Part shown: piece after piece, positions 3,747 through 19,064 of the stretch
Numbering within the stretch: position 1 is the stretch's first letter
Layout: every line of letters starts with the position of its first letter
Virus record (IMG/VR): IMGVR_UViG_3300042346_000547
Span: 1-20,249 of that record
DNA from: a virus
Reading direction: 5' to 3' (one strand)
DNA: 20,249 nt
Made by a program: the position numbers and the translations under genes
Notes under the pieces: model-generated
The model's database searches: none
What the model was told of the DNA's origin: nothing
Seen by the model: only the letters and a program-made list of their open reading frames with translations

Positions 3747-3807
3747 AATTAGTTAATTAGTTAATTGTTAATGTTTGACCAATTTTGTTTGCACTCAACT
3801 AGGTCAA
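3747..3807 (-). promoter_or_regulatory. Repeat-containing SSB leader, candidate autoregulatory translational operator
   Basis: Directly upstream of the SSB ATG the minus strand is almost purely A/T and repeats ATTAAC three times (at 3772-3767, 3765-3760 and 3757-3752), ending TAATTATG at the start codon. Just 5' of this lies an inverted repeat, TTGACC (3807-3802) and GGTCAA (3780-3775), with a 21-base loop. T4 gp32 represses its own mRNA by nucleating at a 5' pseudoknot and spreading over an unstructured leader with UUAAA repeats. The layout here (structured 5' element plus unstructured A/U repeats reaching the start codon) matches that logic. The sequence arrangement is seen; operator function is inferred. 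Confidence 0.5.
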
Positions 3808-3844
3808 TGTTGAATACAATGGCTCAATAAATGGTGATAGTCAA

Positions 3845-3873
3845 TCTATAAATAATAGCAATCATTTTTTCAA
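3845..3873 (-). promoter_or_regulatory. Possible sigma70-type promoter for the SSB/replication genes
   Basis: The 191-base gap 3747-3937 is the longest gap with no visible coding potential. It contains TTGAAA (3873-3868), 17 bases, then TATAGA (3850-3845) on the minus strand, near the -35/-10 consensus at ideal spacing. Transcription would begin about 90 bases upstream of the SSB ATG and include the repeat leader. In AT-rich DNA such matches arise by chance, so this is tentative. Confidence 0.33.
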
Positions 3874-3937
3874 TCGTTAATCAGTCATTCGTTAAGTGAA
3901 TATAACTATAATCCAAAAAAAGATTTCTTCGGATATA

Positions 3938-4336
3938 TTAAGTTATCTGGAAAATCTTCAGCAATCTTGTAGGCGTGATTTTCACCTTACCATCTCTGGC
4001 CGTGATAAATGAGTTTTTGTACATTCCCCAATCTATTTGATATGTGTTGGAAATAAATCCGTTATTCTGTTCCTTGATCAATTCATTGAGTGCATTTATG
4101 CTGTAAATGATATTGTGTTCCTTTTTACGATGAACAGATATGGTGTTGGGATAAAACTGACTACCGTTCTTTTCGGAGTTATATGTTAAAAACACATCTT
4201 CTTTATTCAATCCGCTTTGCAACACATATACTTTTTTCTCTATGATATTATAATATTCAGATAACGCAAATATCTCGTTTTGATAATTGTTGTACTTGGT
4301 GAAAGTACAAAGCAGTTGTGCGTTACCTGTGGCCAT
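3938..4336 (-). CDS. Conserved-looking phage protein of unknown function (132 aa)
   Basis: I do not recognise a named family. The protein (MATGNAQLLCTFTKYNNYQN...) is soluble-looking, without a signal peptide or membrane segment. It alternates strand-like segments (KKVYVLQSGLN, NTISVHRKKEHNIIYSI) with a central helix (NALNELIKEQNNG) and a C-terminal basic part (GKVKITPTRLLKIFQIT), consistent with a compact alpha/beta fold. The start two bases after the upstream stop (TAATAATGG) and its own stop before a 191-base regulatory gap suggest it is the last gene of the transcript that begins in the tail region. It follows two genes with capsid-targeting-like N-termini, so a virion-related role is possible but unproven. 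The leader AATTAATCTAATA shows no Shine-Dalgarno sequence. Confidence 0.72.
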   Translation of the reverse strand: MATGNAQLLCTFTKYNNYQNEIFALSEYYNIIEKKVYVLQSGLNKEDVFLTYNSEKNGSQFYPNTISVHRKKEHNIIYSINALNELIKEQNNGFISNTYQIDWGMYKNSFITARDGKVKITPTRLLKIFQIT

Positions 4337-4338
4337 TA

Positions 4339-5208
4339 TTAGATTAATTTTTCCGCGAATAGTTTATATTCGTCTCTATCTATACTTCTTATCGGTACAA
4401 TTTCACCACTCATCCCTACAACAGCTACGGTGTTACCTTCTCTATCAATATATTCACCATACAACTCAGATCTCCATCCCTTTTTCTCCGCAAATTTTTT
4501 TGAGACCGACGAATATTGTTCTGGCGGCGTTGTTACTACCGGTACATCAATCTCCGGTGCTTGTTGTGTCGGTTCTGTTGATGGTTCTTCTGACCGCGTT
4601 GGTTGTTCTTCTGGTTTAGGTGATGGTTTTTTAGCCATCGTTGGTTTTACGACTGGCGTCTTTGGTCCATCATCAACTTCATCGTCCACAACTGTACTAT
4701 ATATTGCGCTTTTAGTGTCTGGTTGTGTTGGTTGTTTCTGCGACTGTGGTTCAGCGTTTTTATCTACTGGCGTGGTGGACAAAGCTTGTTGTTTTGCTAC
4801 CGGCGCTGTAGATTTGTCAGTAGACTGCACGGTGGAGGTGCTCTGTTGCGTTTGTCTTTTTTGCTTTCCTTTTTTCTTATAATACAAGTTCATTCCGCCT
4901 TTGCCGTGTGTGGGATCAGAAACAGAATGGGTTCCTTTTTTAAGCGCAGCATCGCGATATTCTTTCGATGGGAATGTAACAAGCCAACCGTCTTTATTAA
5001 ATGCTTGTCGTTCTGGATATTTTCCTTCGCCAATCATTGATTCTAAAAATTCGTTCACCACTTCTTCATCTCCACATCTATCATACACGATTTCTGCTAG
5101 AACCATTATATGACTTACATTATTGATATCAACGATACCGTCAGGTATTCTATTGTCTAGCGAAGCTTCGCTTATGATCGATGAAATGAAATTTTCTATA
5201 TTTTTCAT
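4339..5208 (-). CDS. Putative internal/virion protein with capsid-targeting-like N-terminus and disordered linker
   Basis: Function is not recognised. The 289-residue protein has three parts. The N-terminus MKNIENFISSIISEASLD resembles T4 capsid-targeting peptides (MKTYQEFIAEA), including an I-x-E followed by a small residue (IISE-A, residues 12-15), the type of site the T4 prohead protease cuts. A small globular part follows to about residue 115 (AFNKDGWLVTFPSKEYRDAA, then DPTHGKGGMNLYYKKKGKQK). Then comes a long disordered stretch rich in Pro, Thr, Gln, Ser and Lys (about 116-238). The end is a short globular C-terminus (KKFAEKKGWRSELYGEYID, GNTVAVVGMSGEIVPI). It lies six bases after a gene with a similar N-terminus. 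The likely reading is a protein packaged in the head, but no protease or head gene is in view to confirm it. Confidence 0.7.
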   Translation of the reverse strand: MKNIENFISSIISEASLDNRIPDGIVDINNVSHIMVLAEIVYDRCGDEEVVNEFLESMIGEGKYPERQAFNKDGWLVTFPSKEYRDAALKKGTHSVSDPTHGKGGMNLYYKKKGKQKRQTQQSTSTVQSTDKSTAPVAKQQALSTTPVDKNAEPQSQKQPTQPDTKSAIYSTVVDDEVDDGPKTPVVKPTMAKKPSPKPEEQPTRSEEPSTEPTQQAPEIDVPVVTTPPEQYSSVSKKFAEKKGWRSELYGEYIDREGNTVAVVGMSGEIVPIRSIDRDEYKLFAEKLI

Positions 5209-5214
5209 ATAATT

Positions 5215-6732
5215 TTAATCTTCTGAAAAGTCGCTAGGCGCTGTTGTTCCTGGTAGAACAAAGTTTATCTTGTTTAGTCCAAGATTTAAAAACATAAATT
5301 CTGAGTCTGCGCTTACAAATCTTGCTTTGTTACCAGCCCGTTTATCTATCACAATCAATCCACTATACTTATTTTTTAGCAATTTCCGTAACTCTTGAGA
5401 AATCTTATCTACCGTGTATTTTTCTTTAAAATATATAAGGGTTTTTGCTTCTCCTTCATAGTCTTTTTGAGTTTTTTTCTCGACTGAAGATTTTACTTTC
5501 AGGGTTAAATCCGGTTTTTGATTGTTTACTATTGCATCAATCTCTTTTTTTGCATCGTTTGGATCAATCGCAAATTCTTCTTTTTCACCAGCAACTACAA
5601 TAACTGCTTTTGCTGTCCGTGGAGTTTCTGGTTCGGGCGGTGGTTGCGTCTTAGAACTTGAGACGGAACCAAGTTTTACTCCTATCTCAGCCAATGCATT
5701 GAATAAATTTGTCGGCATTTCGGTTGTTCTTAACAAGCTACAGAAGTTTACCAATGAACGAAGCATTTTGGCACGGTCTCCTTCGGACGGTCCCGGATAC
5801 GTTTCAAGTACTCGAACTAAAAATGTTGCAAGCGATGGATTTTTTTCAAAATCATAGCTATCTGGTGATTCCGCAGTTATTCCGCTGTTACCGCTCTTTC
5901 TTATTTCCGTCGCCAGTTCATCTATACCTATTCTAAACCTAGTGTTGTAATACCCTTTCAAAGTTGGAGCACTAATACTTACCACATCTTTTTTACTCTT
6001 TCCAGTAAGCTCCTTCATCTCGATATCTTTTTCAACACTGCCAAACACCAGATCTACTTCAGCCGTTCCTCCGGATTTATATCCTTTCATCAACCATACA
6101 AAAAACAATTCACCTCTACCCAATCCTTTTTTTTCTTTTCCGCTACCCTCAATTGCGTCAATAATTCTATCATATTGCCCATTGCTATACGAGGCAATCG
6201 CTTGGTCCATTTCCATTGTATCGTATGCATTATAAAAACGCTCTCCTTCTTCACCGGTAGATGCCACTGCTTTTTCTATCCATCTAGCCCCAACAGACCC
6301 CGCTCTCTTTCCATTCGGTGCAGCAAAGTCTTCATATTTATTTTTATTTATTCGCTCTTCTCGTTCTTTGTCTGATAGTGCTTTTGTAGTTTGCAACTTG
6401 TTGTATTTAGCCCAATTCATTATTCTTTTTTTACCAGCAAGTACGTCGGCCAATTTTGTACCCGGAGGATATTTCGGGTGTTTAAATTTTCCACCAAACA
6501 CAACTTCACCGTCTGCATTTTTTGTTAAGAATTTTGGATCATATGGTCTACCTATTTCATCCAATGTTTCAAGCAACATATCAAATTCATATCCACTCAT
6601 GCCATATTCCATCAACATGATTTCTTCCAGAGTGCTTAGATTTTCATCTGTGTCATACCCTCCCGCCAACCCATCGGGAGATCGCATTGCCCACTCGCTA
6701 ATAATATAGTCTATAATCTTGCTTTTATCCAT
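5215..6732 (-). CDS. Large protein with capsid-targeting-like N-terminus and PD-(D/E)XK-like signature
   Basis: This 505-residue protein is not one I can name. It begins MDKSKIIDYIISEWAM, a short helix ending in an I-x-E site (IISE, residues 10-13) like T4 capsid-targeting peptides. A middle region has GLGRGELFFVWLMKGY (Glu208), GGTAEVDLVFG (Asp227) and EKDIEMKEL (Glu238, Lys240). This E...D...ExK spacing on a helix and two strands is the hallmark of PD-(D/E)XK nucleases. Before it, VGARWIEKAV and the YDTMEMDQAIA helices look like a conserved helical domain. A Pro-rich linker (PPPEPETPRTAK, about 367-378) leads to a separate C-terminal alpha/beta domain. If both readings are right, this would be a nuclease carried inside the capsid. 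Alternatively it may be a structural protein with an inactive nuclease fold. The leader (ATATTTATATATT before ATG) lacks a Shine-Dalgarno sequence. Confidence 0.72.
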   Translation of the reverse strand: MDKSKIIDYIISEWAMRSPDGLAGGYDTDENLSTLEEIMLMEYGMSGYEFDMLLETLDEIGRPYDPKFLTKNADGEVVFGGKFKHPKYPPGTKLADVLAGKKRIMNWAKYNKLQTTKALSDKEREERINKNKYEDFAAPNGKRAGSVGARWIEKAVASTGEEGERFYNAYDTMEMDQAIASYSNGQYDRIIDAIEGSGKEKKGLGRGELFFVWLMKGYKSGGTAEVDLVFGSVEKDIEMKELTGKSKKDVVSISAPTLKGYYNTRFRIGIDELATEIRKSGNSGITAESPDSYDFEKNPSLATFLVRVLETYPGPSEGDRAKMLRSLVNFCSLLRTTEMPTNLFNALAEIGVKLGSVSSSKTQPPPEPETPRTAKAVIVVAGEKEEFAIDPNDAKKEIDAIVNNQKPDLTLKVKSSVEKKTQKDYEGEAKTLIYFKEKYTVDKISQELRKLLKNKYSGLIVIDKRAGNKARFVSADSEFMFLNLGLNKINFVLPGTTAPSDFSED

Positions 6733-6779: not shown

Positions 6780-8147
6780 TTATATAGACACTTGTTTCAT
6801 ATCACCATAATTCTTACCTACATACACTTTTACAGGAAACTTGTCTCGTTCCATTATGGTTTTGATCTTTTTTATAATAGGCATCTTATCGCTTTTATGC
6901 GCATCAAACAATATGCTATCGTATGTATATAACACGGGCTTGGTTTGCTTGTCGGTTAGATAGCTTATTAACTCACCCAACACATCAACCGCCATTTCTG
7001 TTTCAAACGCTTGTAGTATATAGTTGAACAGTTTGTTTGGCGTAGGATCTTGAATATGGCAGTGCTTGATTTTACGACCATATTTTGGAGTTTCTATATA
7101 ACCATTAGCTTCAAAGAACTTCCAGCGATGATCAATATACTCCTGCACTTTCTTGAAGTATGGAATATGCGTCCATTTCTTGTCTATGCCGCCATATATC
7201 TGAGTAAAAGTAAATCCTTTAGCCACGGCAATATCTTCGTCGGTTGCGTGAGGCTTATTAAAGAAATGCTTGGCCAGATAAGCATATGGATTTTCGGACG
7301 CATCCATCTGGAAGTTTGACAGGTGAGCAATCAGTCTTGGATGAAATGCATTATAGTCCATCATTATAAGCATACCATCCTCGCCATATCTACTCACAAA
7401 ACAATCTCTGCTACCGTCATTTTTATTCAGAGCAGCATAGTTGACGCCGCCAAATCTATTAGACGGTCTACCCGTTGAAGTAAGCAGGTTATATTGTGAG
7501 AACACAAGGTTGTTCTTCATATGCTTGGTCTGTTCCTCGCCAAATACATCCGTAAAATCATCATTTACGCACAAGCCATAAGACTCAAGTTTGGCAAACA
7601 ACTTAGTCATATTGTTGTTGGTGAATACAAATCCTTTTTCAAGTGTGCTTTGGTACGCAATCTTTTTGATCTTATCTACAACTTCATTGAATACTTTAGC
7701 GTGTTTATACACAGGTACGCACACATTCAAGTTATTCATATACTTGAAGTTACTATGTATGAAAGTTGATGCGTTACTGTTTTGAATCTCGCTTGGTAAA
7801 GTTCCATTCTCCAAAAAGTTGTATATGTTTATATCAACAAACCCAAGATCAGTACCAAACAACTGAATCATACTTTTCTTGTCATATACAATCTTGTTGT
7901 ATCTTGTTGCATTCTTGATCGCGTCAGTTACTTTAGACAATCCATCTTTGATACAAAGACACTCGTTATGCTTGATAGGTAAGCATATACTTTCTTCGCT
8001 TACCATAAAATAGAAGAAAAGTAAGCACAAGTTATTGTTGCTTACATGCCTTTCATCATCTGTATAAACAGGGTGAATATATACGTGCTCTGCCGACAAA
8101 GCAGATAATAGTATATTCAGGTCATCCGATGTTTCTATAATACGCAC
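6780..8147 (-). CDS. Compact family A DNA polymerase
   Basis: All polymerase motifs of family A are readable. LTSTGRPSNRFGGVNYAAL (222-240) is the template/primer-grip region. Motif A is MMDYNAFHPRLIAHLS (Asp264) and motif B is AVAKGFTFTQIYGG (Lys310, Tyr318). NYILQAFETEMA (375-386) is the helix after motif B, and motif C is YTYDSILFD (Asp410). Both metal-binding aspartates are present. Two positions depart from the Pol I consensus. The motif A Glu of DYSQIELR (the ribose steric-gate position) is His269, and motif C reads YDS instead of HDE. The 455-residue length is short. The N-terminal 120 residues look like a remnant of a 3'-5' exonuclease domain but lack its first D-x-E. The start is GTG at 8147, the only plausible start after the in-frame TGA at 8180-8178, and it lies inside a hairpin. 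Its place between tail genes and putative head proteins is unusual for a replication gene. Confidence 0.85.
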   Translation of the reverse strand: MRIIETSDDLNILLSALSAEHVYIHPVYTDDERHVSNNNLCLLFFYFMVSEESICLPIKHNECLCIKDGLSKVTDAIKNATRYNKIVYDKKSMIQLFGTDLGFVDINIYNFLENGTLPSEIQNSNASTFIHSNFKYMNNLNVCVPVYKHAKVFNEVVDKIKKIAYQSTLEKGFVFTNNNMTKLFAKLESYGLCVNDDFTDVFGEEQTKHMKNNLVFSQYNLLTSTGRPSNRFGGVNYAALNKNDGSRDCFVSRYGEDGMLIMMDYNAFHPRLIAHLSNFQMDASENPYAYLAKHFFNKPHATDEDIAVAKGFTFTQIYGGIDKKWTHIPYFKKVQEYIDHRWKFFEANGYIETPKYGRKIKHCHIQDPTPNKLFNYILQAFETEMAVDVLGELISYLTDKQTKPVLYTYDSILFDAHKSDKMPIIKKIKTIMERDKFPVKVYVGKNYGDMKQVSI

Positions 8148-8184: not shown

Positions 8185-8574
8185 TTATCTGCCACGCCAA
8201 TATTCAAGTAAGTTAGTCAGTGTAGTAGACAGATCGATGCCTTCTTCTTTTTTTACTCGGTCAATTTCAAATCTGTTGGACTCTTCTACGCCATTTTTAT
8301 CAAGAATACCATTCTTGTACACATTACTTTTTGGACCAGATATTCTCCATTTTACTTCAACAAATTTGTATAAGTTTGTGTTGATATTTTGCGTAGTTAT
8401 ATATGAAACTTCGAATATAAAATTTTCGTTAACTTTCTTGACAAGATATCTGTTGATATATCCATTTGTATAATCTTCTACTGTCGGAGTTGGTTTATTC
8501 TTTGCTACATTAGAACTACCTCCTATTTCAGAGAAAGCTCCATACTGAATTGGTAGTGTATTGTTATATATCAT
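8185..8574 (-). CDS. Small probable virion structural protein (129 aa)
   Basis: The start is chosen at the ATG of an ATGA overlap with the upstream 781-aa gene stop (MIYNNTLPIQYGAFSEIGG...). An in-frame ATG at 8619 would add 15 residues overlapping that gene and is less likely. The protein has no cysteine, membrane segment or signal peptide. Its core (GYINRYLVKKVNENFIFEVS, then NLYKFVEVKWRISGP) reads as beta strands and ends in a helix with a basic terminus (LLEYWRGR). The tight coupling to a baseplate gene and the general layout resemble small structural proteins found in baseplate clusters of environmental T4-like phages. I cannot match it to a named T4 gene product. Translational coupling to the upstream gene is likely, since there is no Shine-Dalgarno sequence. 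Confidence 0.72.
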   Translation of the reverse strand: MIYNNTLPIQYGAFSEIGGSSNVAKNKPTPTVEDYTNGYINRYLVKKVNENFIFEVSYITTQNINTNLYKFVEVKWRISGPKSNVYKNGILDKNGVEESNRFEIDRVKKEEGIDLSTTLTNLLEYWRGR

Positions 8575-10916
8575 AATACAGTCAGTGGTCTTACTTGTGC
8601 CGTAACGGTCGTTGTCCACATTTTATCTTCTATGGTTTGCTTGATGTCCGATATTTGCCATACCGCGTTTTCGTAATTATATGCGTCCGGCGCATGGTCT
8701 ATCACGAACTGCGAAAGATAATTTATTCCAGATATACCCAGTAGTTCGAGTGTAAGTGTTGTGCCCGGCATAATAGCGTTATTTAAATATGAAGATTTCT
8801 TATTAGGTAAAGTAAGAAGATTGTTCAGGAAATCTTTATCTTTTTCATACAAATAGTATCTTATTGGATTTTTTGGATCATTCGGGTTGGGTTCGTAATA
8901 AATAAAAAAGTTGTCATTACTTTCACTTCTAGCGGTTTTCTTTTTTTCTATTTCTTTGTTTTTTACTGTTTGTTCCTGTGTAACTCGTTTTTTTTGCTGT
9001 TCTGGTGTTTCCACTACGGCTGAAGATTCGGACGTTATAATGGTCTTAATTTCTCCTTTGCGATACAAACGATCCCCCGCAGAATATCTACTAGTTATAG
9101 GAGTGGCTTTTGTGTTGCTTGTTGACGTTGATCCGTTTGGATCTTGCTCGGGATTGGCACTTTGCATCACCAACTGATTCATCATTTCCGCGCTTAACTT
9201 CACATCAAACGATACATTCTTTAAAAATGCAGAGTCTATCGCCCCCAAAGTTATTTTTGGTAAAAGTTTAGCATCGTTCTTTGTTGATATTCCGGCCAAG
9301 TTTTCGTCGTAAACTGAATATTTTGAATTACCATATTCAGCCGGTTGCAATTTAAGCTGGCATATCTGACACAGAGATTCGTTGATTCCTTGAAGCAATT
9401 GTTCTATAAGTTTCAACACAGAATCATTTTTTTCAACCAACGATTTGAAATACTCAGCATTTATAAATAAGTCTTTTAAATTTCCCCAATATCCGGATTT
9501 TAATATCTGTGCAGTTTTTCCGTCTTCGTCATTTATCGTGAGATTATCATAAACTGGAAACGATTGTCCATTTTTGTTTATTACTTTCTGTAGATCATCA
9601 AATGAAGTATCAAAGTTATATTCTTTTTTCAAAGAGTCTATTTTTTCTTTAAACAGCAAATCATATACACCTTCTTGAGTTGGTTTCTTTGCCCCCGCAG
9701 TTTTTTCTGTCTCATAAACGAACCTTGGTGCATATTTGTTTGGTACCAACACGTTACCATCTTTTCCGGTTGATTTGACAAATGGATTCGCGGACATTCT
9801 TGTCTGCATGATATCAAAGTTTCGTATTATGGCAACCTTCGGATTTTCCATGGTAATCTGAAAAAATGCGTTTATGATATCCTGAACCAGATCCATTCTT
9901 AACCAAAAACCTTTTTTATTTTTGCTTATCTTATCATCCTTGATTCTAAACACTCGGTCTTTAATATTATCTATGGTGTCGATTACGTTTTCGTCGGCAT
10001 CTTGAATCTTCTCAACAAGGTTCAACGCCTTTCTTATATTTTTATACTCTTGAGTATCTGAATCTATACTGGTCAAGTTTTTCTTGGCGAATTCAAAAAA
10101 ACTTTTAACGGGTAATTGTGACTGTTCTTGTTTAACCGTAACAACCTTGTTGGCAATTTGCTCACCTTCTATCAGGCGGTTGGCATTTATGATGGTGGTA
10201 AAACAATCATAGCCCCCGTTTTCACTCATTTTAAATCCATAGTCAGTTATAAATCCAAGACCGGCGTCATAATTTCCGTTCGATTGCTTTATATATTCCA
10301 ACGTATAGCTGGGATCCACGAACATCTCATTTATCCAGTCCAAATCAGATAAATCAGCCAGCGCGGCTCGGTTGTAGTTGTTCCATCCCCATTCAACCAA
10401 GCAAGTTATTCTTGGATTAAGAAAATAAGGCATCATATAGTTCAATTGAGCCAGCGAAAAACAACGCCAATTGAATGTAATTTTTCTGCACAAATTTGGA
10501 AAACTGGAGTTTGATCCGTTTAATTCACAAGATACGCTCGTTAAACTGGGAGGTGGTCTATGTGGAAAGTCTGCTTGGTCTTTTCCTTTTGACGTTGTTG
10601 CTCTATCAAAAGGTATCTTATGTGGTTCTCCCTTTGCATCAACCCCTATTGTTATAGTTTTTTCCGTATTAAACCCATAACTTTCAGCAAACCCATATGT
10701 ACCACCAAGTACAAATCCATCTTTTCCTTTGGCAGCAGGGTGGTTGGATATTCCGTTTGAAAAAACTCTTGCCCACGCAGTTCTTGGTCCACTATATGGT
10801 TTGGATGCATCGGGGGTTGGGTTTTGGCCATATTCTTTGGTACGCCGTTTAAGTTCATCCGTAACCCATCCAGAAAGCGGGTGTAATCCCCAAGGCACTA
10901 CAGTTACATTACTCAT
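8571..10916 (-). CDS. Large baseplate/tail structural protein (781 aa)
   Basis: The product is a large soluble protein with an N-terminus rich in Trp, Gly and Pro (MSNVTVVPWGLHPLSGWVTD). A central block reads PPPSLTSVSCELNGSNSS, FNWRCFSLAQLNYMMPYFL and RITCLVEWGWNN, at roughly 120-200. That block resembles a structural family I associate with environmental myovirus baseplates, where a layered beta domain is followed by an EWGW-type motif, but I cannot assign a T4 number. The middle is helical and charged, and a Ser/Thr/Lys linker lies around 595-660. The C-terminus (PGTTLTLELLGISGINYLS, ISDIKQTIEDKMWTTTVTA) reads like the closing beta domain of a hub or tube-like protein. It lies between a gp53-like gene and a small structural gene, which supports a baseplate role. 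The start six bases from the upstream stop is unambiguous. Confidence 0.75.
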   Translation of the reverse strand: MSNVTVVPWGLHPLSGWVTDELKRRTKEYGQNPTPDASKPYSGPRTAWARVFSNGISNHPAAKGKDGFVLGGTYGFAESYGFNTEKTITIGVDAKGEPHKIPFDRATTSKGKDQADFPHRPPPSLTSVSCELNGSNSSFPNLCRKITFNWRCFSLAQLNYMMPYFLNPRITCLVEWGWNNYNRAALADLSDLDWINEMFVDPSYTLEYIKQSNGNYDAGLGFITDYGFKMSENGGYDCFTTIINANRLIEGEQIANKVVTVKQEQSQLPVKSFFEFAKKNLTSIDSDTQEYKNIRKALNLVEKIQDADENVIDTIDNIKDRVFRIKDDKISKNKKGFWLRMDLVQDIINAFFQITMENPKVAIIRNFDIMQTRMSANPFVKSTGKDGNVLVPNKYAPRFVYETEKTAGAKKPTQEGVYDLLFKEKIDSLKKEYNFDTSFDDLQKVINKNGQSFPVYDNLTINDEDGKTAQILKSGYWGNLKDLFINAEYFKSLVEKNDSVLKLIEQLLQGINESLCQICQLKLQPAEYGNSKYSVYDENLAGISTKNDAKLLPKITLGAIDSAFLKNVSFDVKLSAEMMNQLVMQSANPEQDPNGSTSTSNTKATPITSRYSAGDRLYRKGEIKTIITSESSAVVETPEQQKKRVTQEQTVKNKEIEKKKTARSESNDNFFIYYEPNPNDPKNPIRYYLYEKDKDFLNNLLTLPNKKSSYLNNAIMPGTTLTLELLGISGINYLSQFVIDHAPDAYNYENAVWQISDIKQTIEDKMWTTTVTAQVRPLTVL

Positions 10917-11227: not shown

Positions 11228-13363
11228 TTACAGCGTGTTCTCCCATCCCGTAATTGGTCCAAAATGATAATTACTGGTTTGAGATTGTTGTTTTTCAAGT
11301 AGTCTTAGACCGACGCTTATGTCAACGATTGTTGGTAACTGTCTGGACGTTGCAGTCCTTTTGATTGATTTTTCTTCACTGTTTCCATAATAATATACAT
11401 ATTCGTCTGATCTTAACGTTTCCCAATTCGCATCATCTGGTATATTAGTGGTTACGCTATTCAAAATTGCCGGTTGGTCTACATATAAATCTCCTATTCT
11501 AAATTCTATCATAGGAGGATATATGAATCCACTTTCACGCCCAGTTGAGTCGGTTTCTGCACCAGACTCAGCAGCTTCTCCAGCCGTGGCTAATGCGCGG
11601 TCTGTGTATTTACTTGGTCTCGTTAGTCCAACTAAATAGTTTATTCTCTTCCACATAGAAACGAGTTCAGATACGCTATTGGCGTAAACTCTAAAATTAA
11701 AATTTACGTCTCTCGTGAATCCTTTATAAACAAACAATGTATCCGCACGACCCATATATTTAACAGGATCCCATTCTGGGCTATTTTGATCGCTTATACC
11801 ACCTAATGTTGCTCTGAATGGAAGATAAAGATCATGAATAAGATCTTTGAAGTAAAAGAAAATTATGTCTTGTGACTGATCGGACCCCTGTCCCATGTAT
11901 ATCAGTCTTTTAAAATTTCGTTCTTCAACAGTTTCTAAATTATTATAATTATCTCTACCGTATTGATTATTCTTGGTTGTTGCTTTGGCGAATCCTTTGT
12001 CTTCCAACGTTATGTTCTTATCTGAGAAAAACGTATAGTATGGAGTTGCTCCTTTGTCCGATGGTATTTTTTTGTAGTTGTTTGAGGCATCAATGCTGGT
12101 GTATGTATTTGTATTATATCTTTCAGCAGACTTGTTATACATCGGATGCTGGTTTTCCGTATTCTGCCCCTCGACTAAATCAAACATTCTTTTATACAGA
12201 GCAATCGTTCCAAAATCATGTTTCGTATCTTTGTTGAACCTCTCGGTCATCTGGAACTCTCCAGCGTATCTAATCACAGGATCTTGGACTGGGCCGCTTA
12301 CAATTACATCACCTGCACCAAGGTTTGTGTCAAGATCTTTCCCCTTATCCGGAACATCCATTGTAGGAGATTCCGACGCTGGTATTCCAAGTGCAAGTGA
12401 TTCTAAATCAGTTTGTATGTTTGCAGATTCTGTGTTTGCTCTTTTTTTTCTTTTTTCTACAAGTTGTGTATAGTTCAACGGGTCTCTACTGTCATTGTAA
12501 AAACGGCCATAATCTTTACCTCCAGCCGAACGTAGTGCTCTATTTCCGATATAAGACAATAACCCATTACTATCCGCAACCATTGAAATATATGGACTAT
12601 CACCTGTTTTGTACTCTGGTCTGTATAACCAATCTGCTTTTTTTCCTGTTTTACTAAACAGCCCAGTTGTACTGGCTATCGATTTCAATACACTAGCCAA
12701 AAAACCACCGCTACCTTTTTTTGTTTCAACGCCAAGCCAAGTTTTATCCATGTTGGCCAGACCCGATGCTGCTGTTTCGCCGCGCATCAAGCCGTATCGA
12801 CCACCTTTCTTTGATTGCACATATGGTGATAATGGAGCGGTTGCCGTACCAGGTATTGGTTCAACTAAATTTTCTTTTGTGGTAGAAAATCCAATCGTGC
12901 TCAACAGAGAACTTGCAAAAAAGTTTAATAAACCTCCACTCGATTCTATATGTCGCACTGGTCTGTTTCCAAATAACGGGTATCTGGTTGCACCAAGTAC
13001 ACTGCCTGCGTTGTATGTGCGAGTTTCATCAAATGGTGCAGAACCTTGCAACAGTAATTGTTTTCCAAGAAATAGTATCCCAGTACCAGTAACAGTAAAC
13101 TTTCCCATTCGGATCAAGTCTCTTGCAACCGAACCTATTGGCACTGCCCGCGAATCATACTTCGTTAAACTCTTTTGAAAGTTGGAGTCTGTTAATTTTG
13201 TATATACAAATGGTTGATCCGGTCCTATACCGCCGCCCGCTTGGTCGTATGGACTAAACTTGTTATAAATACTTCTTTCATTCTTTTGAAACGAAGCCAC
13301 ACGCTCCGAAGGAGTACTTCTTTGTATTGGAGATAATGGTGCTAAAAATGTATTGTCTGCCAT
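11228..13363 (-). CDS. Baseplate/tail-tube protein with contractile-injection-system tube domain (gp48/gp54-like)
   Basis: The 711-residue protein has an N-terminal region without clear homology, rich in Gly, Ser and Tyr (MADNTFLAPLSPIQRSTPSE). A recognisable C-terminal block spans about 495-600. It reads IIFFYFKDLIHDLYLPFRA, PEWDPVKYMGRADTLFVYKG, then FTRDVNFNFRVYANS and ELVSMWKRINYLVGLTRPS. The F-R-A / W..V.Y.GR.D..Y.Y.G..R / F.F.V.A.S..EL..MW..LN.L pattern is that of tube-initiator and LysM-adjacent baseplate proteins, such as T4 gp48/gp54 and contractile injection system tube proteins. The gene follows the tape measure and precedes the LysM protein, the same order as gp29-48-54-53 functions in contractile tails. 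The long N-terminal part could be a decoration or attachment region. The exact T4 equivalent is uncertain. Confidence 0.74.
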   Translation of the reverse strand: MADNTFLAPLSPIQRSTPSERVASFQKNERSIYNKFSPYDQAGGGIGPDQPFVYTKLTDSNFQKSLTKYDSRAVPIGSVARDLIRMGKFTVTGTGILFLGKQLLLQGSAPFDETRTYNAGSVLGATRYPLFGNRPVRHIESSGGLLNFFASSLLSTIGFSTTKENLVEPIPGTATAPLSPYVQSKKGGRYGLMRGETAASGLANMDKTWLGVETKKGSGGFLASVLKSIASTTGLFSKTGKKADWLYRPEYKTGDSPYISMVADSNGLLSYIGNRALRSAGGKDYGRFYNDSRDPLNYTQLVEKRKKRANTESANIQTDLESLALGIPASESPTMDVPDKGKDLDTNLGAGDVIVSGPVQDPVIRYAGEFQMTERFNKDTKHDFGTIALYKRMFDLVEGQNTENQHPMYNKSAERYNTNTYTSIDASNNYKKIPSDKGATPYYTFFSDKNITLEDKGFAKATTKNNQYGRDNYNNLETVEERNFKRLIYMGQGSDQSQDIIFFYFKDLIHDLYLPFRATLGGISDQNSPEWDPVKYMGRADTLFVYKGFTRDVNFNFRVYANSVSELVSMWKRINYLVGLTRPSKYTDRALATAGEAAESGAETDSTGRESGFIYPPMIEFRIGDLYVDQPAILNSVTTNIPDDANWETLRSDEYVYYYGNSEEKSIKRTATSRQLPTIVDISVGLRLLEKQQSQTSNYHFGPITGWENTL

Positions 13364-13377
13364 ATGTTATATAAATA

Positions 13378-16300
13378 TCAAACAGATGCCCTTGCTAGCA
13401 ATTTAGACGCTTTTACACCATCTATATTTACTCCAATATTTCCTTCGGCCATTAGCGTTATCAATTGATCGAGTTTACCAACAACTGCGTCGCAACATAC
13501 TCCACCGGATGCAGCATCCGTGGCAGTGGTAGTTGCTGTACTTCTGTTTTCTCCAATTCTGGTTATTGCGTCTGTCAGTTTAACTATTGCATCCTTTAAT
13601 TCGGTCAATCCTTTAACTTCCATTGGAGCAGTGGTGGAACTTTCTGCCTTTGCCTTTGCGTCTCCGGAAACATTCGCAGTCGCGTCAGCATTTCCTCCAC
13701 CAAACAATTTGCTTATAAATGGTATTTTGCTTATTAACTCAAACGCTTGTTTGAAAGGCCATGTTATTACGTCTATTAAAGAAGAAAACGCTTTGACAAA
13801 AACGTCAAATATTCCTTCTACAGTCGTTTTTATTCCTTCCATTATTTTTGTACCAAGTTCTCCGCTACCACCAAACAAACCGGAAACAAAATTTACGACT
13901 TCTCTGAACGGAACTGTAAATATATCAAACAACGTTCCCGCGATGCTTTTTATTCCCGATATGATGTTTGTCGCGAATTCTCCAGCATTTGAAAATAATG
14001 CGGAAACAAAATTAACAACGGTTTTGAATGGTAGTGTTAATATATCGAAGATAAAACTGCCTATGCTTTTTATACCATCTATTATCTTTGTTCCCAAATC
14101 GCCACTTCCCCCGAATAGACCAGAAACAAAGTTTATCACAGTTTTGAATGGAAACGACAATATATCAAAAATAAAAGATGCAACCGATTTGATACCTTCA
14201 ATTATTTTTGTTCCAAGTTCACCGTTTCCACTAAACAAGTCTGAAACCATACCAACCACAAATTTAAATGGAAACAGAAGTATGTCCAATATAAAAGAAC
14301 CAGCCGCGCTAATTCCGTTCATTATTGCACTTATAATACTACCTCCACCGGAAGGAGTAAATATACCATATACAAATTCAGATATTTTTTTGAATGGCCA
14401 CATCAATATATTCAATACAAATTTTCCTGCCATTTGTATTCCGTTTAGTATGGAGTTGATAATATCTCCACCTTTACTAAAAAACTTCGTTACAAGTTCT
14501 TTCATTTTTCTGAACGGCCATGCTAGTAATTCTCCCATTTTTTCACCGGCAAATTTTATAGATTTTAATATTTTAGTCCCAATTCCCTCGTCACCGGTTA
14601 ATATATTTTTTATGGTATAATATGCATCAACGAACGGTTGAATTGTATATTCGTATAATACACTTCCTATCTTTTTTATTCCTTCAAGCATGCCGTCACC
14701 AAGACCCGGCCATATTTTATTTAAGACCCAAGCGACTCCGTCTATTATTGGTTGAATCATCACGTTCCATATTGCAACGGGTAACGCGGCCAAACTTGCA
14801 ATGACTTTTTCAAAAATGTTCATATCGTCCCGCTTAAATATTTCAAAAATACTAGATACCCATTCCCACAAAATTTGTATTGCGGATATAACCAAACCAA
14901 TTGGACCAAGAACATTTTTTACAAAATTTCCAATAAATTTAAATATGCCCTCCACACTGTTTAAAATTGGAGTCAGTGATTTAAATGCACCAGTCAATCC
15001 ACGGGAAAATATTGATAATTTGTCAGATATATTTATAAAATATGTACCTATTATTTTAAACGGTTTGAAAGCTTCTGAAAACTTGCGTGTTATACCTAAA
15101 AGGCCCATTGAAATCGCATTAAGAACAAATCCAAAAACTTCTCCAAGTTTTTCAACAATTGGAATTACCTTTTCTGTCAGCACTGCTCCGATTGATGCCA
15201 TAACTTCTTCAAGTTTAAGCCCGCCTTCTTCGCTGGATCGCATGATTTTACCGAATCCATCGAATGCGCTTAAAAATCCTCTAACAACTGCGCTAATCAC
15301 CTTAAATACCATACCAAGTGCTCTAGCAGCGACCAATATAACGGGCATGATAGTGTTAGCGATTGGTAATAATGCATCTGTTATATCTGTCCATATAGCA
15401 TTGAGTGCGTTTGTAAGTTTATTCATTTCGGCCTGACGCAGTTGTTGTTGCATCATTTCTCTACCTCTGGCGACAAGATCTTCTTTTGCCGCTTTTTCGT
15501 TTTCGGCAATCTTTTTTTGCATTGCTTCATACTTGTCGAGCATTTCCTTGTCTTTACCTGTCGCTTTTGCTCTAAATTCGGCAAGCATCTTTTGCTGGTT
15601 TTGTTGCTTGATAACTTCATCCACCGTCATACCAGCCGCTTTTGCAAGTGCTTCTTGTTGATATACATTCAACTTTGTAAAGTCTCCAGCCTTTTCAAGT
15701 TGTTTCAGAGCAAGTTCTCGCGATTTTACAACATCGCCAGCATATGCAGCCGCTCTTGCTTCTTGGAAGTTGAGAGATTTTCCAATCAGTGCGGACGCTT
15801 CAAGTTCACTTGTTATAGAATCTTGATAGTTCAAGAAGCCTCTGGCGGATTTTGATAGAGAGTTTACGGTTGTACCCAACCGGCGTGCTTCTACTGTGGC
15901 TTTAATCAATGCCATAGGACTTTTTGCCAAAAATGAAAGTGTTTCACTAGACGCCTCTGCCATATCTTTTATCACGGCGGATGGTGCAACTCCTCCCATT
16001 TCAGCCAACGCAGATGCTGCTTGCATACTCTGCGTTGCGGTCATACCAGCAGATTGAGAAATAGAAGTAAACAACCCTCTAAATTTTGCAGCGTCAGTAA
16101 TGGCTATACCAATATTAGCGGCCATTTGAGCAGTATCGGAAATCATTTCTTTTGTTACTAGTCCAATAACTTGAAATTGATCTACAAGTGCTTGCGCGGT
16201 TGCGTATACTGCTCCAATATTTACGCCGATAGAAGCAAATTGAACGCTAACTTCGCGAGCGGCTTTGTCTAGTTGTCTGGTTTGTGTGACTATAAATCCA

Positions 16301-17058
16301 GTCTTTTCTCTGAAATCTGCGGCTGCTTTATCTAATTCTTGCCACCTGTCCAATGAAGCTTTGATTATTGCAAGATAGCCCGCCGCCCCTCCTTTTGATA
16401 GGGCGTTTCCAAGTGATGCTAAGTTTTTAAATTCTTTAGCGTCGTTGAGCAATGGACCAAATAAATTATCATATACTCCTTTCAACAATTGTGCTTGGGT
16501 TCTTCTATCTTTTTCTTGCTTTACTAGTTTTGTTTGTACTATTGACTGAGCAACCAGATTTTGAGTTTGCGCGTTTAATGCATCTATAATTTCAAAATTT
16601 CCAGCTACTCGCGAATTGATTCCGTTTATTTCTTCAACTATGGCAATTCTTCTTTCGGCAAGATCTTCTGCTCTCAATCTTGCTTGATTTTTCATTTCTG
16701 CACTAACTGAGCTAACTGAACTATTAATTATAGCGTGTTCCGCTGCAATTCTTTCTTGAAATTCTGCATCTTTAGCGAGAAGTCTACCGGCTTTATTTGA
16801 TAAATCAAAATTTTGTTTTTCAAATTCTAAAACCGAACTTTTATTTTTTGTTATTAGATTATTTATAGCCGTCTGTTTTTCTGTTGCCTTATTTAGTGCT
16901 TCCGTGGCACTTTGTACTGCCTTTGTGGCGTCAAACCAACCATTCGTCTCTTCTCTGGCCTTTCGTATTTCCATACGAGCTTTATTTAAAGATCTAGTAA
17001 GATCCTCTCCAGCTTTTTCAATTTCCCGCAATTGTTTTTCTGTTAGGTCGTCGGCCAT
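13378..17058 (-). CDS. Tail tape measure protein
   Basis: At 1226 residues this is the longest gene here, with classic tape-measure architecture. A charged coiled-coil N-terminus (about 1-190, many Lys/Glu/Ala heptads) is followed by helical segments (AAADFREKTGFIVTQTR, about 245-262). Hydrophobic stretches occur near 555-620 (IANTIMPVILVAARALGMVF). An array of 40-residue amphipathic repeats occupies 787-1108. A Ser/Thr/Ala-rich linker then leads to a C-terminal helix (GKLDQLITLMAEGNI) with a rare Cys-Cys pair. The protein sets tail length during tube polymerisation and is later ejected. At about 0.15 nm per residue, the general tape-measure rule, the tail would be roughly 180 nm, clearly longer than T4's. 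The gene lies just after the two putative chaperone frames and before tube and baseplate genes, as in most long-tailed phages. The leader (CCTATTATATAA before ATG) lacks a Shine-Dalgarno sequence. Confidence 0.93.
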   Translation of the reverse strand: MADDLTEKQLREIEKAGEDLTRSLNKARMEIRKAREETNGWFDATKAVQSATEALNKATEKQTAINNLITKNKSSVLEFEKQNFDLSNKAGRLLAKDAEFQERIAAEHAIINSSVSSVSAEMKNQARLRAEDLAERRIAIVEEINGINSRVAGNFEIIDALNAQTQNLVAQSIVQTKLVKQEKDRRTQAQLLKGVYDNLFGPLLNDAKEFKNLASLGNALSKGGAAGYLAIIKASLDRWQELDKAAADFREKTGFIVTQTRQLDKAAREVSVQFASIGVNIGAVYATAQALVDQFQVIGLVTKEMISDTAQMAANIGIAITDAAKFRGLFTSISQSAGMTATQSMQAASALAEMGGVAPSAVIKDMAEASSETLSFLAKSPMALIKATVEARRLGTTVNSLSKSARGFLNYQDSITSELEASALIGKSLNFQEARAAAYAGDVVKSRELALKQLEKAGDFTKLNVYQQEALAKAAGMTVDEVIKQQNQQKMLAEFRAKATGKDKEMLDKYEAMQKKIAENEKAAKEDLVARGREMMQQQLRQAEMNKLTNALNAIWTDITDALLPIANTIMPVILVAARALGMVFKVISAVVRGFLSAFDGFGKIMRSSEEGGLKLEEVMASIGAVLTEKVIPIVEKLGEVFGFVLNAISMGLLGITRKFSEAFKPFKIIGTYFINISDKLSIFSRGLTGAFKSLTPILNSVEGIFKFIGNFVKNVLGPIGLVISAIQILWEWVSSIFEIFKRDDMNIFEKVIASLAALPVAIWNVMIQPIIDGVAWVLNKIWPGLGDGMLEGIKKIGSVLYEYTIQPFVDAYYTIKNILTGDEGIGTKILKSIKFAGEKMGELLAWPFRKMKELVTKFFSKGGDIINSILNGIQMAGKFVLNILMWPFKKISEFVYGIFTPSGGGSIISAIMNGISAAGSFILDILLFPFKFVVGMVSDLFSGNGELGTKIIEGIKSVASFIFDILSFPFKTVINFVSGLFGGSGDLGTKIIDGIKSIGSFIFDILTLPFKTVVNFVSALFSNAGEFATNIISGIKSIAGTLFDIFTVPFREVVNFVSGLFGGSGELGTKIMEGIKTTVEGIFDVFVKAFSSLIDVITWPFKQAFELISKIPFISKLFGGGNADATANVSGDAKAKAESSTTAPMEVKGLTELKDAIVKLTDAITRIGENRSTATTTATDAASGGVCCDAVVGKLDQLITLMAEGNIGVNIDGVKASKLLARASV
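13735..14700 (-). repeat. Eight diverged 40-residue (about 120-bp) tandem repeats in the tape measure gene
   Basis: Units start at 14700, 14580, 14469, 14343, 14214, 14094, 13974 and 13854. The last four are spaced exactly 120 bp; the others vary by a few codons (111-129 bp). The consensus is G-T-K-I-I-x-G-I-K-S-I-x-S-F-I-F-D-I-L-x followed by FPFKxVVNFVSGLFGGSGEL. The central units (14214-13854) are most alike and the outer ones more diverged, as expected if the array grew from the middle. Each unit is an amphipathic helical hairpin with a conserved Pro-Phe kink. Confidence 0.85.
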
Positions 17059-17103: not shown

Positions 17104-17346
17104 TTACCTTCTTATAGCAGGTCTATCTACCTTGGGACCGCTAGTTTTGGATCCCTTTGCTGCACTCTCTTGCTGGTCTGCTTCTTGTTTCTTTGTATCA
17201 ACTAGTTTTTTGACATAAAACCTACGCAAATACACGGGCATATTATATACTTCAGAGTGGTTGAACCCTCCGTTGCTATAATAGCAAAGATTAAAAATCT
17301 CTTCGTGTAATCCTACCTTATACTCAGGAGGAAGGCCAAAAGAAGT
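17104..17346 (-). CDS. gp51-like / tail chaperone extension read in the +1 frame after the hub gene
   Basis: This frame is open from just after a TAG (17349-17347) to TAA (17106-17104). It encodes FGLPPEYKVGLHEEIFNLCY, then YSNGGFNHSEVYNMPVYLRR and FYVKKLVDTKKQEADQQE, and ends KVDRPAIRR. The pattern (E-I-F-N-L-x-Y-Y, then V-Y-N-M-P-V-Y-L-R-R-F-Y-x-K-K-L) looks like a genuine conserved small protein of T4-like baseplate clusters (gp51-like) or the second half of a tail-chaperone pair. There is no ATG, GTG or TTG before the conserved part; the first ATG (17241) would leave only 45 residues. It overlaps the 3' end of the gp26-like gene in the +1 frame, so it is probably made by frameshifting as an extension of that protein. 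A non-standard start (for example ATT at 17298) or a sequence error are alternatives. The tape measure follows 45 bases later. Confidence 0.6.
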   Translation of the reverse strand, partial: TSFGLPPEYKVGLHEEIFNLCYYSNGGFNHSEVYNMPVYLRRFYVKKLVDTKKQEADQQESAAKGSKTSGPKVDRPAIRR

Positions 17347-18193
17347 CTACACCCAGTGGCATAGCCATCCTTTCCTCGTGCCCACACTCGGAGCATTTGA
17401 AGCTGAAATTCATATCAAGTTCTGGTGTATTTTCTCGTATATATTTTCTCAAAACAATACTATCTCTGGCTGGTAGATTATCCACAAACTTTTTGACAAC
17501 CCCACGATCTTCGTCTCCGTTTACAGAAACAATCATATATTTTAACCGCGTTGTCATTTCCGGCGATGTACCCTTGGATACTTTTGCCAAACCCTTTAGT
17601 TCCGCATCTATATCGTTTTCATCCTTATGAGTAAGAATCTTGTATGTGACTGTCTTCTTTGTAACTGGTAATTCGAACTCAAACGAGTTCTCTCCCTTTT
17701 TGTATTTGCTAAAATCAAATTCCTTCGGGGCTAAAGTAGAAAGGTCAACGTCTATATTGTTTTCTGCTTCGCATTTTGGGCATGTAATCTTTACAGGATA
17801 TTTGTCACCATACGCAAGGCGACGGGCTGCAACAAATATGGCGTTCTTATCCAAAACAAAAATATCTTCCAATTTAACACCAGGTGAAACAATTAATGCT
17901 CTTAACAACTCGTCCAGAACCACGCCCTTCTTGATAAGGTTTTGACTGGTAAGAATATCTTCTTCCTTGGCAGTCATATATTTTAGTTGTATACGACCAG
18001 AAGATAGCGGAGAAGACAATGGATAAAAATGACCCTGCGATGGTAAATCGATATATTCTGTTGGGAAATCAAAAGCAGGAGCAGTTGTGGCTACTGGCTG
18101 CGCTGTTACTGGAGAAGGTGCTGCTGTAGCAGGCTGTTTTGATACTGGTATAGTTTGTTCTGGCATATTATTTATAACATTTCTGTTTAACAT
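17324..18193 (-). CDS. T4 gp26-like baseplate hub subunit / tail assembly protein with two CxxC pairs
   Basis: The 289-residue protein has a Pro/Ala/Thr-rich N-terminus (1-40) and then the conserved core of the T4 base-plate hub family: YIDLPSQGHFYPLSSPLSSG, IQLKYMTAKEEDILTSQNLI and KKGVVLDELLRALIV (about 47-102), then DKNAIFVAARRLAYGDKY (115-132). Two CxxC pairs, CPKC (138-141) and CSEC (267-270), probably form a zinc ribbon. The C-terminus is PLGVDFFWPSS. The listed start is the first ATG (18193). A second ATG at 18166 (MPEQTIPVSK) is equally possible, since neither has a Shine-Dalgarno sequence. The gene follows a strong terminator, so it probably opens the tail operon. Hub assembly and, given the overlap with a second frame before the tape measure, a tail-chaperone role are both plausible. 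The family call is confident. Confidence 0.86.
   Translation of the reverse strand: MLNRNVINNMPEQTIPVSKQPATAAPSPVTAQPVATTAPAFDFPTEYIDLPSQGHFYPLSSPLSSGRIQLKYMTAKEEDILTSQNLIKKGVVLDELLRALIVSPGVKLEDIFVLDKNAIFVAARRLAYGDKYPVKITCPKCEAENNIDVDLSTLAPKEFDFSKYKKGENSFEFELPVTKKTVTYKILTHKDENDIDAELKGLAKVSKGTSPEMTTRLKYMIVSVNGDEDRGVVKKFVDNLPARDSIVLRKYIRENTPELDMNFSFKCSECGHEERMAMPLGVDFFWPSS
17336..17344 (-). other. Candidate +1 ribosomal frameshift site
   Basis: The hub gene ends GAC TTC TTT TGG CCT TCC TCC TGA. At TTT TGG a tRNA-Phe in the P site (17341-17339) can slip one base forward and pair perfectly with TTT (17340-17338), after which GGC CTT CCT CCT GAG continues in the +1 frame. This would join VDFF to GLPPEYKVG. 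No other codon between the +1-frame TAG and the 0-frame stop re-pairs as well. The slippery geometry is seen; use is inferred. Confidence 0.45.
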
Positions 18194-18269: not shown

Positions 18270-19064
18270 TTATTCTGTTGGCTTTATACCTCGCTTACGC
18301 ATTAAGTATGCACGAAGGTTTGCCATTTTTCTTTGTTTATCCGTTTTTTCTTTTGCAGTAAGATCTGTGGCAACTGGTTCTGAAGTACTGCTTTCTGGTG
18401 ATTCCTCGGCGTCTTTTACCATGTGTATTGCGTTTGCGACAATTGATGGTGTAAGATTCAGTGGCTCACCGTTTTCACTTCGAGTTGTTAATTCGGCGGC
18501 GATTTCTTCGTCGGTTGCATTTGGATTATATTTCAGGATGTCTGCGACGGCCAATTCAGTTTCACGGGTAGATACTGGTTTTTTCGTTGAACTTGACTGG
18601 GATGTTGGCAATCCAGTTGTATCGGCATATTTTCCTTTTTTGATATATGGACCTTTTGGTGCTTCCGTAGGAGTGCCGTCTGGAATGGTATTGTGTCCTT
18701 TAACAACCCAACCTGTTGGAGAGTTTGCGTCCTTGACCTTAAACTTGCTTCCTACAGCGCCTTTGACACGAGCCATTTCGTCAATCTCTTCACGAATCAT
18801 TTGTAGGATCTCTTCCTTGATACTGCCAACTTTTTGTGGGTTGGCTGGTTTTTTTACCACAGGAAGTTTCTTACCTTCTTCTTTTTCTTTTGGTGCTGGA
18901 CCAGTCAGGTCTTTTGAATCAGCAACATTCTCTGTGTGTTCGGTTGATTCTGGTGCTTTCTTCATACCAGACAATCCTTTGGTTTCGTTAAGTTGTTCTT
19001 GCTTTGCAGCAATTACTTCTTCGGTGATAACTTTTAGTAGTGCTTTGAGTTCTGATTTTTTCAT
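18270..19064 (-). CDS. Charged phage protein of unknown function, virion-protein-like N-terminus (264 aa)
   Basis: I do not recognise a named family. The N-terminus MKKSELKALLKVITEEVIAA is a short amphipathic helix ending in I-x-E, like those on packaged phage proteins. A disordered Lys/Glu/Pro segment follows (about 25-80). A second similar helix, SIKEEILQMIREEIDEMAR, lies at about 80-98. A small domain follows (GSKFKVKDANSPTGWVVKGH, GPYIKKGKYADTTGLP, about 104-152). A helical part spans about 165-217 (ELAVADILKYNPNATDEEIA), and the protein ends basic (MANLRAYLMRKRGIKPTE). There are no membrane segments or cysteines. It sits 20 bases after the Cys-rich protein and just before a terminator, so it is the last gene of the upstream unit. 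A structural or packaged role is likely but unproven. The start ATG is preceded by the AT-rich leader AACATATAAATCT. Confidence 0.7.
   Translation of the reverse strand: MKKSELKALLKVITEEVIAAKQEQLNETKGLSGMKKAPESTEHTENVADSKDLTGPAPKEKEEGKKLPVVKKPANPQKVGSIKEEILQMIREEIDEMARVKGAVGSKFKVKDANSPTGWVVKGHNTIPDGTPTEAPKGPYIKKGKYADTTGLPTSQSSSTKKPVSTRETELAVADILKYNPNATDEEIAAELTTRSENGEPLNLTPSIVANAIHMVKDAEESPESSTSEPVATDLTAKEKTDKQRKMANLRAYLMRKRGIKPTE

Follow-up and report, generated by a model that had tools for sequence, protein, structure and literature searches.

A gp26-type phage gene very probably yields a short and a long tail assembly chaperone through +1 frameshifting

How is a conserved reading frame translated when it holds no ordinary start codon ahead of its conserved core? 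This question is raised by a window of 20,249 nucleotides, the whole stretch of viral DNA analyzed here (IMG/VR virus record IMGVR_UViG_3300042346_000547). On the minus strand of the window, a gene for a 289-aa PF12322/gp26 "baseplate hub" protein (17324..18193, stop TGA 17326-17324) ends in GTA GAC TTC TTT TGG CCT TCC TCC TGA. A second frame lies in +1 to the hub, begins behind an in-frame TAG (17347..17349) and runs for 80 codons (17104-17346) to a TAA stop at 17106-17104. Both precede, on a common strand, the gene for a 1226-aa tape measure protein (13378..17058; phrog_167, E 5.8e-19; phrog_58, E 4.7e-16). A first-pass annotation of the window had proposed that the two frames are joined by a programmed +1 frameshift. 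Comparison across 160 loci and 121 junctions strongly supports this candidate, as far as sequence can speak for it, and very probably one gene here gives rise to a short and a long tail assembly chaperone (TAC) through +1 frameshifting.

A slip site joins the hub frame to a C-terminal extension

The slip site, TTC TTT TGG (17336..17344), can be read directly from the sequence. As the first-pass annotation had it, TTT TGG (17341-17336) permits a +1 slip of the P-site tRNA with full re-pairing, the 80-codon frame and its upstream bounding TAG are present, and the pair lies directly before the tape measure gene. The same annotation saw no ATG, GTG or TTG ahead of the conserved core, which is right in effect: the first such codon is codon 36, an ATG within the conserved VYNMPVYLR. 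The TAG, 3 codons 5' of the slip codon, closes the extension frame upstream, so that entry by initiation further 5' is impossible. Translation of the fusion gives a C-terminal extension (TAC-C) of 77 post-slip codons in the +1 frame (17107..17337, GLPPEYK...AIRR) and a predicted product of 362 aa.

In the mechanism we propose, the majority of ribosomes would end the gp26-like TAC-N at the hub TGA, and a minority would slip +1 at 17341-17338, where tRNA-Phe would leave UUU for the overlapping UUU, skipping one U. The P-site TTT at 17341-17339 would re-pair on TTT 17340-17338, and decoding would restart at GGC 17337-17335. Slipped ribosomes would yield the 362-residue TAC-NC, in which the C-terminal domain comprises three helices. 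By analogy with lambda gpG/gpGT, both forms would coat the tape measure protein and recruit tube subunits in tail polymerization. We infer the occurrence of slippage, its efficiency and the chaperone role alike.

The genes of the window start without a visible Shine-Dalgarno (SD) motif, behind AT-rich leaders (e.g., 17058, 18193 and 13363). SD use is weak in Bacteroidota, and leaders of this kind are fitting for a Bacteroidota host. Elsewhere on the minus strand, a 455-aa match at 6780-8147 covers the polymerase domain only of a family-A DNA polymerase, whereas the DNA polymerase of T4 belongs to family B; the ORFs of 505 aa and 289 aa beside this match have no family match. Large minus-strand ORFs near the tail genes (11228-13363, 711 aa; 8571-10916, 781 aa; 18270-19064, 264 aa) found no match in Pfam or PHROG, and Rfam and tRNA scans of the window gave no matches.

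The overlap and the slip string are conserved

Searching IMG/VR with the hub and the extension separately, we recovered 160 loci with both parts, and the +1 relation of the two frames is present in 160/160. The sole locus without an extension match, L035, sits on a contig that stops at that point. Relatives within metagenome-assembled genomes (MAGs) are mostly from Bacteroidota; the overlap is kept in 7 Bacteroidota-type MAG loci, with TGG in 6 and TTT TTT TTC in 1. The order hub, extension, tape measure recurs in Flavobacterium phage immuto and in SP-15. In the deposited annotation of immuto, the extension is represented by its 3' end alone, entered as a hypothetical gene of 111 nt (L162, 4336-4446). 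At one further locus (L036, 3001-3768) the presumed hub stretch is interrupted by an in-frame stop.

The consensus TTY-(TTT/CTT)-(TGG/TAC)-CC(T/A) fits 121/121 distinct junctions. The most frequent string is TTT TTT TGG CCT (76), followed by TTT TTT TAC CCT (32); rarer are TTC TTT TGG CCT (7, including the window), TTT CTT TGG CCT (4) and TTT TTT TGG CCA (2). The A-site codon, TGG in the TTTTGG string singled out in the first pass, is TGG at 89/121 junctions and TAC at 32/121. The P-site codon is TTT in 117 junctions, CTT in 4 and TTC in 0, counts that are not independent draws, as the 121 sequences share ancestry; among the other Phe codons of these hubs, TTC makes up 262/1263 (21%). Re-pairing of the P-site codon in +1 (TTT or CTT, then T) is kept beyond coding need at 121/121 junctions. 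After a slip, position three of the slip codon goes unread in the extension product, so its fixation is unexplained by protein coding, which points to slippage.

Over 7139 codons of the extension region we counted no stops in the +1 frame, 784 in frame 0 and 310 in the -1 frame. Substitutions in the +1 frame, taken from pairs with <40% aa difference, number 7777, 4289 and 16150 at codon positions 1, 2 and 3. Judged from the aligned relatives, the +1 frame is under strong purifying selection. No ATG, GTG or TTG stands ahead of extension codon +30 at 48/121 junctions, and in 58/121 the extension frame is closed 3-5 codons 5' of the shifted codon.

Alternatives to a +1 slip

The extension frame could also be reached by a -2 frameshift, as used for the chaperone of phage Mu, with one residue more in the product. 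We consider this improbable: the run of seven Ts (TTT TTT T) in most relatives would allow a single P-site tRNA to re-pair two bases back, but at 11/121 junctions (TTC TTT TGG in 7, TTT CTT TGG in 4) a -2 shift leaves a middle-base mismatch where +1 pairs well. The CTT-T and TTC-TTT-T variants favor +1 P-site slippage over a -2 slip and over stuttering of the polymerase alike. Such transcriptional slippage on the T run, giving a mixed mRNA population, is highly unlikely, for the seven-T runs frequent among relatives give way to four Ts in the window and three in the CTT variants, too short for ordinary polymerase slippage, and still the frame and the string are kept.

Slightly less probable than a -2 shift, in our judgment, is a separate small gene translated by internal initiation or by termination-reinitiation, for instance from a non-standard start. 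The apparent lack of SD motifs makes starts in this window hard to read, and in PVA8, Cr30 and Marzo, all of the -1 branch described below, an ATG overlaps the hub stop, with the extension listed as a gene of its own. In the +1 branch, missing starts (48/121 junctions, as above) and a frame often closed 3-5 codons upstream make separate initiation unlikely; in addition, the conserved extension starts right at the slip site, and the slip codon is fixed with no coding reason. As for an assembly error or a decaying gene, one lost base could give two overlapping frames with the second startless. This explanation, to which we assign next to no probability, is ruled out by the conserved relatives: 121 distinct junctions lie across many contigs, purifying selection is strong, and a near-identical second assembly (L003, 99.87% identity over 5.9 kb) aligns gap-free with an identical junction, with no base missing or added. 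This comparative evidence gives strong support to a programmed +1 frameshift at TTT-T.

Candidate stimulators

The A-site codon of the window, UGG, is an ordinary sense codon. No SD stood at a spacing like that of RF2 in the 12 sequences we inspected. A downstream hairpin was rejected as a general stimulator, being confined to a subset of relatives and absent from the window, where no significant structure was found (L003, z -0.3). In 13 relatives, which were picked because they fold, a covarying hairpin of 7 bp with a 4-nt loop starts 7 nt past the first base of the A-site codon. Its pairing is 100%, double changes occur in 12 cells, and slid controls score far lower. The hairpin loop contains the hub stop region (L017, L030, L032, L038, L073 and others), and these loci form part of the +1 branch.

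The hub and the extension as a probable tail assembly chaperone

What, then, are the two parts of the protein? The hub matches PF12322 (E 1.6e-17, 64.3 bits against a curated cut-off of 24.5) and phrog_150 (E 5.1e-20). Searched directly with the 80-aa frame, Pfam and PHROGs yielded no usable match, and sequence searches of the PDB gave no matches. We predicted the structures of hub and extension separately with AlphaFold, obtaining a hub model with pLDDT 89 and pTM 0.79 and an extension model of three helices with pLDDT 84.7. Foldseek found no significant PDB match for the hub model. When 503 PDB chains were realigned to it, the top two were 3klu (YqbN, Z 5.4), which we take to be a phage-tail chaperone-like protein, and 2ob9 (Z 5.2), the HK97 tail assembly chaperone; both scores are modest, below the Z 8 at which such a match would be comfortable, and both matches span hub model residues 40-130. 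PDB matches of the extension model were generic helices and histones and are uninformative on function. Its match to the "tape measure chaperone" of phage Moogle is weak (rank 24, prob 0.63) and, at the level of predicted structure, points the same way as the tail assembly chaperone reading.

The relation to T4 runs through intermediate relatives. Residues 1-201 of T4 gp51 are a paralogue of gp26 (PF12322, E 3.9e-52), and its C-tail, the last ~48 residues, aligns where the extension sits. Profile comparison with hhalign linked extensions of the -1 type to the gp51 tail (prob 96, E 3.6e-9) and +1 extensions to -1 extensions (prob 93, E 3.2e-7); 0/200 column-shuffled controls reached the score of either comparison. 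Compared directly, +1 extensions and T4 gp51 gave no significant match. The gp51 C-tail is thus homologous to the +1 extensions by way of the -1 members, and the first-pass label "gp51-like" survives in essence by that route, though not by direct comparison. The label "gp26-like hub" is correct as to family, although the short form of a tail assembly chaperone is a better reading of this protein than part of a baseplate hub.

Probable frameshifts of both directions and separate genes in one family

Members of this family differ in how the extension would be reached. Named phages with the +1 arrangement are Flavobacterium immuto (TTT CTT TGG), Microcystis Mel-JY01, RM378, SP-15, LIS04, GXN1, BRock and LR756508, the last few with a slip at TTT-C or TTT-T. 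The -1 arrangement is found in Aswh_1, S13, PVA8, Cr30, Marzo, Desulfovibrio 7757 and Sf-CH1b, and further in Cassandra, Atu_ph07, XacN1, RAS14 and LR756511; SFP10 has a -1 extension with the canonical heptamer absent. With cyanophage and Aswh_1 seeds, all distinct loci were -1 (72/72), at T TTT TTC and in one case T TTT TTT. In T4 and KpV477, gene 25 overlaps or abuts the hub stop and there is no extension.

In every distinct cyanophage-type locus (L173, L178-L257), gp26 ends in a slippery T TTT TT(C/T) and is followed by a conserved -1 extension of ~60 codons, unannotated in the records examined. Three -1 relatives (L265 2801, L266 2654, L269 2732) combine a T TTT TT(C/T) site with an ATG overlapping the hub stop and may make the extension both fused and alone.

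In our trees, a large -1 group is separate from a group of the +1 members plus a second -1 lineage. The direction label changes four times with all rows and two times without long-branch rows, and without the latter the +1 members form one group (support 88/62). We dropped the idea of several independent +1 origins, given one +1 group without the long-branch rows and 2-3 changes with them. Slippage direction appears, from these trees, to have switched at least once, the exact number being unsure. The genes for gp26 and gp51 lie back to back in T4, which suggests that duplication replaced frameshifting. A broader reading, on which our judgment is evenly balanced, is that a single chaperone family may use three modes: slippage by -1 (T-TTT-TTC), slippage by +1 (TTT-T or CTT-T of the same Phe-Phe) and two genes (T4), with direction switched at one site and the Bacteroidota +1 mode working without an SD stimulator.

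The chaperones of T4-like phages have themselves been recognized before. As cited in PMC10885494 and PMC12846349, Vladimirov et al. 2022 identified T4-like TACs, with a separate short gene and a longer fused gene in some T4-likes and poly-T -1 sites in TAC-N genes. The novelty suggested in the first pass is accordingly reduced. In the literature consulted, with Vladimirov et al. 2022 known through those citations, we found no description of a +1 mode in the gp26-type family, of its 121-fold conservation or of the same-site switch. Within that literature, the new part would be the +1 mode in a Bacteroidota-associated clade and the change of direction at one homologous site. A widely annotated "baseplate hub" gene gains a better-supported role, that of a frameshifted tail assembly chaperone, in many uncultured phages, and a C-terminal domain left unannotated or truncated in many public genomes is restored. 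With +1, -1 and two-gene solutions set side by side in nature at a single homologous site, the determinants of slippage direction become testable.

Comparison with known systems

Like lambda gpG/gpGT and other frameshifted TACs, the pair lies before the tape measure gene, and a short and a long form with a common N-terminus are predicted, here known at the sequence level from the overlapping frames. Sequence search found no relation between gpG/gpGT and the window proteins, and the lambda frameshift is -1. A likeness in pairing is seen with the CUU-U site of RF2 (prfB), where the P-site codon likewise re-pairs in +1: the window and its relatives have CTT or TTT followed by T, and CTT T itself occurs in 4 relatives. 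The RF2 site has a stop codon in the A site and an SD upstream, whereas in this branch UGG or UAC occupies the A site and there is no well-placed SD. Actinobacteriophages share the +1 direction (the PRFect set of annotated, mostly TAC, joined phage genes counts 350 cases with a forward motif; PMC10885494), but their chaperones are of different families than the gp26 type.

The nearest systems by descent are those of T4 and the -1 phages. The first-pass annotation had gp26 and gp51 as separate genes in T4, and indeed they are two paralogous genes on opposite strands (L164, T4 3803-5229), with neither overlap nor slip site; the window hub belongs to the family of gp26 (PF12322), to which gp51 adds the C-tail discussed above, and the window has one gene with a +1 overlap instead. 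The -1 versions (Kyanoviridae-type cyanophages; Straboviridae S13, Aswh_1 and PVA8; Desulfovibrio 7757, Pseudomonas Cassandra and Agrobacterium Atu_ph07) have the same hub, the same Phe-Phe shift site near the hub C-terminus as the +1 branch, and a homologous extension ahead of the next tail gene. They differ in using the classical heptamer T TTT TTC and in shifting in the direction opposite to that of the window.
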